Shown: one piece after another, positions 30,425 through 49,229 of the stretch
Layout of the letters: the number at the start of each line of letters is the position of its first letter
Numbering within the stretch: position 1 is the stretch's first letter
DNA from: Golubevia sp. BC0850
Taxonomy: Eukaryota; Basidiomycota; Exobasidiomycetes; Golubeviales; Golubeviaceae
Length of the DNA stretch: 64,000 bases
NCBI GenBank assembly: GCA_012976225.1
Contig: JAAVVG010000001.1
Location: 1,178,001-1,242,000 of the forward strand
Reading direction: 5' to 3'
Program-made: the position numbers and the translations under genes
Notes under the pieces: generated by a model
What the model saw: only the letters and a program-made list of their open reading frames with translations
Databases searched by the model: none
What the model was told of the DNA's origin: nothing

Positions 30425-32404
30425 ATGGTAAGTCTTCAAATTCGCAATTTCAACCCAGGAAGAAAAGCTCAAAGTGGCACACCAAGAGGGGCGCGGGAGC
30501 AATGCTGGCAGGGCGGATGGGAAATAAAGCACGATGAATATTATTAGATTAGATTTGAGTTGATGGAAGAAAAGGAGAGAGAGAACATCGATGAGTACTG
30601 GACTTTGGTGGTTGGTGGTAGAGGTGGTAGGGAGAAGGAGCACCTCTGATCCAACTCAACCGTCAGTTCTCCCTTCAAGCTATCATCCAATCATTGGCGA
30701 ATGTCGATTTCAAGATGTTGGAGGAGTTGGCGAGGAAGGAGGCAAGCGGATTGTTCTTCAGTGCTGCTCTGTCCTTCCTCCTCCTGAGGTCTGCCTCCCG
30801 AACTTGTCGTCCTTTCTTCAACTTTCATCTCATTTTATTCAAATTAGACCAACACATTGTTCTTTGATCAATCCTCAAGTTTGCAGCCTCAAAGCAGCTC
30901 AAAATCTAAAAACCTCAATTCTCACATCTTCCTCTCCCTTCATCCTCTTCTTCATCGGGTCTCTTAGGTTCGTGGTCCTCGCAAGCATCTCAAGACTCTA
31001 GCCGCTCCATCATCATGGATGATTGGTAAGCTCTCCGGTACCTACACTGTCAGGCCATCCCCTGGTCCACACAAGCTACGTGAATCCCTTCCAATGGCTG
31101 TGAGTAGTTCGCACATGGTAACGCAGTCAGATGGAAAGGTTCAGATTTAGGTGATACTGGGAAGTGTAGATTTGAGAAAGTTGGTGGTGGAACTAGTCGA
31201 GAGAAGTAGCCTCCTGATTTACTCCTTTGGATGCCATGATGAACAACCCGACACATGCATGGCTTTCTGAACCCTTTCGAGGGATTGTGGATAATCATCC
31301 TCCGTTGTCTTATCTGAGCATTCATGGACGATCTTGGAGTTGTCGGAAAGGAGGAAGCGAGAGAATCAGCATCCCTTTTGGTTGGAGCTTCGACTGACCT
31401 TCCTACCCTCCATCACCTTCAGATCCTTCTACGTAACCGTCTAAAGTATGCCTTGACTGGTCGTGAAGTCACTGCCATCACTGCTCAACGTCTAATCAAG
31501 GTTGACAACAAGGTCCGTACTGACACCAAATACCCACTCGGATTCATGGACGTTGTCTCCATCGAGAAGTCTGGAGAACACTTCCGTATCCTTTACGATG
31601 TCAAGGGACGTTTCATTGTTCACCGTATCACTCCTGAAGAAGCTTCCTACAAGTTGCTCAAGGTCAGAAAGGTTCAACTCGGAGCTAAGGGAGTCCCACA
31701 CATCGTCACTCACGATGGAAGAACTCTTCGTTACCCAGACCCTGCCATCAAGGTCAACGACACCGTCAAGTTTGATCTAGAAAACAACAAGATGTTGGAA
31801 CACATCACTTTCGATACCGGTGCCAATGTCATGATCACTGGTGGTCGTAATCAAGGTCGTGCTGGTCTTATTACCGGACGTGAGAAGCACCCAGGAGGCT
31901 TCGACGTGAGTGTCTGGCCCGTCTAGAAAAAGTGTGGTTCTGAGTAGATTTGATAAGTGTTAGTAGCTCTTTTTTTCTGAAGAGTGAAAACCTTTGAATT
32001 CGAAACGATGAAACCTTTGATAGCCCCAGCAACGGTCTCTTTCGAAAGAAAGATTGACCATCCACGTATCGACAGCGTTACTGACGTCTGCTCGTCTCCC
32101 CCCTGCCGATTTGTGTTCTCTCTTTCTTTCTATACAGATCGTCCACGTCCGTGATCCTCTAGGACGTGACTTCTCCACCCGCCTCGGTAACGTCTTCGTT
32201 ATCGGTGAGGGAGGAAAGCCATGGGTCTCTATGCCAAAGGGAGGAGGAGTCAAGCTCACCATCACTGAGGAGCGTGACCAAGTGAGTATTCATCCTTTTC
32301 ATTCCCTAATTCAAGTTCTGAGAGTTGTATACTGACTTGGTCTTCTCTCCTCTTCTTTTCCACTCTTCCAGCGTAGAAGACAGCGCGAGAACGCTGGACA
32401 GTAA
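30425..32404 (+). CDS. RPS4: Ribosomal protein eS4
   Basis: Small-subunit cytosolic ribosomal protein. Exons 30425-30427, 30968-31099, 31423-31905, 32138-32281 and 32372-32404 total 795 bp, 264 residues, the normal eS4 length. Sequence reads [18 protein letters not shown]..., with the KOW-like segment [24 protein letters not shown] and the C-terminal [18 protein letters not shown] region typical of the family. The first coding exon is the ATG alone, followed immediately by GTAAGT; the 541-bp intron and the 323-bp second intron are long for this genome. Intron 2 contains a probable snoRNA, a common arrangement for ribosomal-protein genes. Confidence 0.97.
31228..31324 (+). ncRNA. Probable intronic C/D-box snoRNA with 18S rRNA antisense element
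   Basis: Lies inside intron 2 of eS4 (31100-31422), about 130 nt from the donor and 100 nt from the acceptor. Box C ATGATGA at 31236-31242, box D' CTGA at 31267-31270 and box D CTGA at 31314-31317. Flanks TGGATGC (31228-31234) and GCATTCA (31318-31324) pair over 7 bp with one G-U, closing a terminal stem. The 13 nt at 31253-31265 (ACATGCATGGCTT) are the exact complement of AAGCCATGCATGT, which I know as a conserved segment near the 5' end of eukaryotic 18S rRNA. By the D'+5 rule the target would be the first C of AAGCC. A C' box is not obvious and the second guide before box D has no target I can name. The call rests on motif order and the antisense match, not on a database hit. Confidence 0.68.
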
Positions 32405-48310: not shown

Positions 48311-48408
48311 GCTCGATTAGCGCAGTGGTTAGCGCACCTCCATCACAATTGCTTCACTTTTGAACTGATGGTCCGGAGGGGGCCGCCGGTTCGACCCCGG
48401 CATTGAGC
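48311..48408 (+). tRNA. tRNA-Val(CAC) with a 26-nt intron
   Basis: Acceptor arms GCTCGAT and ATTGAGC pair (one G-U). D arm GCGC-AGTGGTTA-GCGC, anticodon stem CCTCC/GGAGG, T arm GCCGG-TTCGACC-CCGGC. Anticodon CAC at 48344-48346 after T33, so it reads GUG valine codons. The intron (48348-48373) sits between positions 37 and 38, the canonical site. The A box (TAGCGCAGTGG) and B box (GGTTCGACCCC) are good, and a short T run (TTTT) follows directly as the polymerase III terminator. It lies on its own between the broken gene and uL2m. Confidence 0.92.
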
Positions 48409-49229
48409 TTTTGTTCGAAAAGAGAAGAAGAACAGCAGTCTGACTGATATCTTCTTGCTCGACTCTTCTTCGTTTCGAGTGGCCTGCTCTCTCGTCTCTA
48501 GGTTGCTTTTTGAACCATTGTGGACTCGACCAAAAAGTTGGAATAGTCAGACAAGGTTAAAGAGAAGTGAACAAGAGACAGAGTGCTGTTGACACACCCT
48601 TTTTTCTTGTCTCTGTCTTCTCTCTTTTCTAGGTTTACATCTCCAGTCGTGATCGACATCTACAGCCCTCACTCCATTCTCTTGCCCTTAATATCTCTCC
48701 TTCAGCCTTGGCCTGATGCTGTCTCCTTTCATATTTGACCTTATCCTTCTTGTAGAGCTGTTTCCCTTGTCCTGATACACTGACTTCATCCTTTGCCCTC
48801 TCAACTTGCTTCTAACTCGAATCCACCCTTCATCACCTCTAGCTTCGACTAGATTGACTCACAACCTCTTTCACATAGTCGAGGGGAAGCTCGCTTGGCC
48901 ACAAGTTGGTAGCAGTCTCGAGTGAATTGACTTGAATTGAATAATTTTTTAGCGTCAAAGTGGCCTCTTGGTATAGAGACAATGACGTGTCCTCGTACGA
49001 GAATCAAAGGAGTGAAGATTGTCAGCTATTTTCGCAACCTCAAGCTTCTCTGAACACTGCCCGACGATCTAAACCATGTCACTTATCAGTGTAGCGTCTG
49101 ACATCTGATCAGAGCAGAGCGAGAAAAGTGGACTCAAAATGATGAGTTCTATTGTGATTGGCTTTTTGAAGATACAAAGAGATGATACATCGTACGGAGA
49201 GAAGAACTCCCAAAACCAAGAACACTTTC
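48409..49229. other. Intergenic region after the tRNA
   Basis: About 820 bp with no supported gene. It holds the tRNA terminator at its start and the 3' region of the uL2m gene at its end. Confidence 0.4.

Follow-up and report, generated by a model that had tools for sequence, protein, structure and literature searches.

The window, as we call the whole 64 kb stretch of DNA analysed here (G+C 45%), contains an intact five-exon gene for the 40S ribosomal protein eS4. Richness in introns, together with the eS4 similarity, points to a fungal and probably basidiomycete source. Its joined exons encode a 264-aa protein without an internal stop, in which the Pfam domains RS4NT, S4, Ribosomal_S4e, KOW and 40S_S4_C all exceed their cut-offs (S4 and KOW barely), and the closest solved structure in the PDB is the eS4 chain 9axt_AH. 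The second intron has GT..AG ends, and its retention leads to in-frame stops. A box C/D snoRNA candidate lies within this intron on the coding strand, and the eS4 intron that the original prediction had given as its host is intron 2. A branch-point-like A is found 73 nt 3′ of the candidate and 25 nt 5′ of the 3′ splice site; a branch point downstream of the element, as here, is compatible with an intronic snoRNA. The first eS4 intron (30428–30967, 540 nt) starts right after the ATG codon, and a canonical C/D scan found no element in it.

Table 1. Features of the eS4 gene and of the box C/D snoRNA candidate in its second intron (window coordinates)
Feature	Position	Strand	Remarks
Host gene eS4 (40S ribosomal protein S4)	30425..32404	+	Exons joined and translated; Pfam domains; PDB eS4 chains
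eS4 exons (n = 5)	30425-30427, 30968-31099, 31423-31905, 32138-32281, 32372-32404 (including stop)	+	
eS4 intron 2, snoRNA host	31100..31422	+	323 nt, GTGAGT..TTCAG
Box C/D snoRNA candidate including terminal stem	31228..31324	+	Sole C/D scan match in the window
Terminal stem, 5′ arm, TGGATGC	31228..31234	+	
Box C, ATGATGA	31236..31242	+	One spacer base between stem 5′ arm and box
D′ guide, ACATGCATGGCTT	31253..31265	+	13 nt complementary to 18S 46-58
D′+5 base, G	31262..31262	+	Opposite 18S C49, the predicted 2′-O-methylation site
Box D′, CTGA	31267..31270	+	Perfect; T31266 is the one-base gap after the guide
Weak C′ candidate, ATAATCA	31291..31297	+	Uncertain; 5/7 to RTGATGA
D-box guide region, CATCCTCCGTTGTCTTAT	31296..31313	+	18 nt
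Box D, CTGA	31314..31317	+	Perfect
Terminal stem, 3′ arm, GCATTCA	31318..31324	+	
Branch-point-like CTGAC in eS4 intron 2	31394..31398	+	A at 31397

The candidate measures 82 nt from box C to box D inclusive, and 97 nt with its stem. Box C (RUGAUGA) is close to the 5′ end, box D (CUGA) is close to the 3′ end, and the two are joined, as in C/D snoRNAs, by a terminal stem of 7 bp, one of which is G-U. The order of ATGATGA, CTGA and CTGA over 82 nt and the 7-bp closing stem had both been described in the original prediction, and both were recovered. Of the inner boxes D′ is perfect, and no convincing C′ box was found in the candidate, the best being a 5/7 match. The predicted fold has a small CCCU/AGGG hairpin between D′ and the D-guide region. 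Fold energy was rejected as support for a snoRNA (z −0.71, with 46 of 200 shuffles equally or more stable); an unremarkable stability is neutral for the box C/D class.

In a box C/D guide RNA, at least 10 nt complementary to rRNA are expected directly upstream of D or D′. We found that the D′ guide, which ends one base before D′, forms Watson–Crick pairs at 13 of 13 positions with 18S A46–U58, as read from a fungal-type 18S record and not from the organism's own 18S. The complement of the guide, AAGCCATGCATGT, begins at 18S position 46 in that record (NZ_CP082873.1), so that G31262 at D′+5 faces C49, which is the geometry of an 18S-Cm49 guide. Both the 13-nt antisense element and a C opposite 31262 had been anticipated from the sequence, and both hold. 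The paired string lies in a conserved part of 18S, and the guide occurs as a single copy in the window, both strands searched. Our 18S reference was the 352 nt of fungal-type 18S 5′ end at positions 2385–2736 of NZ_CP082873.1, a record of 2736 nt that is labelled as a plasmid of Campylobacter hominis. This 18S piece has 99.4% identity over 176 nt to a yeast-like query and is probably a contaminant of the Campylobacter record. The same 18S string is present in an unrelated viral contig, which has a short 18S-like piece at its end; this contig had no Rfam match at gathering score and was set aside. The guide also contains the palindrome ATGCAT, through which one RNA molecule could pair with another of its kind; this is probably a mere consequence of the 18S target sequence.

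The elements that define a C/D snoRNA are short, and they could have come together in the intron by chance. Both strands of the window were scanned for RTGATGA followed by CTGA, with at least 55 nt from C to D, the CTGA no more than about 110 nt from C, and at least 5 contiguous terminal pairs. The candidate was the single match. Across 200 dinucleotide shuffles of the window, both strands included, such matches occurred at a mean of 0.67 per shuffled window, which is what a chance origin has in its favor, and at a mean of 0.10 when the stem was held to at least 7 pairs. The full form, with an inner CTGA in addition to the 7-pair stem, was found once in the window against 0.025 expected per shuffled window. 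Complementarity to 18S was assessed separately. Of the CTGA sites on the two strands, 706 were examined; only the one that forms D′ at 31267 comes with 13 nt of complementarity to the 18S 5′ end, and the next-best were two sites with 10 contiguous pairs (to the same 352 nt). When the 24-nt guide region was shuffled 20,000 times, none of the shuffles reached 13 contiguous pairs to the 352-nt 18S, the best being 12, reached twice; when duplex energy was the measure and bulges were permitted, 2 of 500 shuffled guides equalled the real one. Set against the rarity of the full arrangement and of the 13-nt match, a chance assembly is exceedingly improbable.

The second guide, upstream of box D, was compared with the 352-nt 18S piece and with two eukaryotic large-subunit (LSU) rRNA contigs, L002 and L003. 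No match of at least 8 nt was found in the 18S piece or L003, and the best was 8 nt in L002; the second guide had been put forward as one without a nameable target, and this agrees with the rRNA pieces compared. Rfam assigns both L002 and L003 to eukaryotic LSU, and they look to be from protists and not from fungi; the records containing them bear the titles of bacterial MAGs (Gammaproteobacteria, Thermodesulfobacteriota). A piece of L002 matched 5383 E. coli records, and the 20 matches listed are annotated as bacterial 23S. A fungal 25S pattern had no matches in viral contigs, and an LSU fragment had none among plasmids. Against the NL1 primer, at the start of 25S, the D-guide forms a 9-bp duplex. 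This was rejected as a target, as the duplex, judged by eye, has a G-U pair and sits away from box D, at odds with the D+5 rule. The D-guide reads TCCTCCG-TTGT-CTTAT, that is, the complement of TCCTCCGCTTAT plus 4 extra bases in the middle; TCCTCCGCTTAT corresponds to the ITS4 primer, at the start of fungal 25S. The likeness may be chance or the trace of a decayed guide, and the D-guide is left as an orphan.

An orphan second guide and a poor C′ box are also what a decayed or unexpressed snoRNA copy stranded in the eS4 intron might look like. Decay should, however, have cost some of the perfect C, D′ and D boxes, the terminal stem and the 13-nt guide, all of which are intact. Further, degenerate C′ and D′ boxes have been described for Neurospora as well (PMC2780460). 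We thus consider a pseudogene very improbable, if somewhat less so than a chance assembly.

A guide for the same site has been reported before. In Neurospora crassa, Nc CD4 is an intronic snoRNA known from an 81-nt cDNA, with a cDNA library and Northern as evidence, and is assigned the target 18S-Cm49 with a 13/0 match and the guide at D′ (PMC2780460, Table 1 as available). The footnote to that table defines 13/0 as pairs and mismatches, with G-U counted as a pair. Nc CD4 and our candidate therefore have in common the C49 target, a 13-nt match, a guide before D′ and an intronic location, and their lengths are close (81 nt of cDNA against 82 nt from C to D, or 97 nt with the stem). Like the candidate, Nc CD4 has no D-guide target given in the available portion of the paper. 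The candidate starts 128 nt from the 5′ splice site, whereas the same portion places Neurospora snoRNAs in general mostly 41–60 nt from it; its main-text passages name no host gene for Nc CD4. Nc CD4 and the candidate are likely to share common descent. For S. pombe, S. cerevisiae, Arabidopsis and human, the available Table 1 gives no Nc CD4 homologue. This is in line with the original prediction, in which the site is not known to be modified in yeast or human; what that prediction lacked is that the site is already on record in Neurospora. Because of this record the novelty of the candidate is limited, and what is new is probably another lineage for 18S-Cm49.

In the literature searched, Nc CD4 was the only snoRNA guide for 18S-Cm49 (PMC2780460). 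Searches for C49 with fungal snoRNA and for an intron-encoded snoRNA in fungal RPS4 found no papers, a search for Cryptococcus RiboMeth-seq snoRNA work found none, and the labels Cm47, Cm48 and Cm50 led to unrelated papers only. RPS4 is absent from the available main text of PMC8216456 and PMC5640933, and the available text of PMC12309372 makes no mention of Cryptococcus or basidiomycetes. The C/D table of Trichophyton rubrum (PMC3890542, Table 2), in the part available, lacks a guide for 18S C49; the entry closest to it is 18S Um50, in that paper's own numbering, under a U14 homologue. For Basidiomycota, intronic C/D snoRNAs are described as usual in three clusters examined (PMC3596301, in part). 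A pattern of C box, guide and D′ gave no matches in prokaryote genome contigs, and a slightly shorter one gave none in viral contigs, results that are uninformative on fungal conservation.

The anatomy, the intronic host, the 13-nt match and the tests against chance together support the earlier reading of a C/D snoRNA with an 18S guide. Judging from sequence, we put the probability of an intron-encoded box C/D snoRNA guiding 18S-Cm49 at roughly 0.9. We infer that the candidate would be expressed, assembled into an RNP and active in methylation of C49. The RNA would be released from the spliced and debranched eS4 intron, trimmed to the C/D core and associated with the standard C/D proteins, fibrillarin/Nop1, Nop56, Nop58 and Snu13. 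Its D′ guide would then pair with 18S A46–U58, and fibrillarin would methylate the ribose of C49, the same job as that proposed for Nc CD4.

The same pairing could serve another end. The stretch 18S 46–58 belongs to the 5′ domain, which folds early, and lies between the U3- and U14-bound segments; a genuine C/D snoRNA pairing there might mainly aid the folding or timing of pre-rRNA as a chaperone, instead of or besides directing methylation of C49. The methylation mapping shown in PMC2780460, in its available part, covers the targets of CD11 and CD29 and not C49, which leaves room for such a role. The D′ box, one-base spacing, 13-bp length and D′+5 geometry nevertheless fit a methylation guide, and we regard a mainly chaperone function as improbable, though the least so of the alternatives weighed here.

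Starting from the favored reading of a methylation guide, a broader scenario can be drawn, which we hold to be doubtful as a whole: the C49 guide would be an old fungal snoRNA, kept in ascomycete moulds and in this, probably basidiomycete, lineage and lost in the two model yeasts; its home in the eS4 intron would be ancestral; selection would act on the pairing for two functions, methylation and the folding of the 18S 5′ domain; and the second guide would have a target outside the listed ones. Confirmation of the candidate would point to 18S-Cm49 as an older fungal modification that the model yeasts lack, and not a Neurospora oddity. The effect on wider understanding would be small.

The candidate also illustrates a C/D guide for which no Rfam model reaches its cut-off in this window: at gathering scores, Rfam reported only tRNA across the whole window and no family on the candidate. 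At relaxed E, two C/D families aligned to the eS4 intron. The fungal family snR56 (RF01188) reached 25.6 bits (E 0.12), and its alignment runs through the C, D′ and D boxes, but it differs from the candidate in guide and target (18S Gm1423 in Neurospora numbering; PMC2780460, in part); being below its gathering score of 54, it was rejected as the candidate's family. SNORD35 (RF00211) reached 13 bits against a gathering score of 36 (E 5.2), a match at chance level that shares the C/D box spacing, and was likewise rejected. snR74/U27 (18S Am28), given as homologues of Nc CD21 in the available part of PMC2780460, also guide the extreme 5′ part of 18S, with a target, A28, that lies 21 nt upstream of C49. 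The Rfam tRNA match (48.9 bits) corresponds to an intron-containing gene at 48311–48409 on the (+) strand, which ARAGORN did not call in its bacterial setting; by eye, its anticodon is probably, though uncertainly, CAC (Val).
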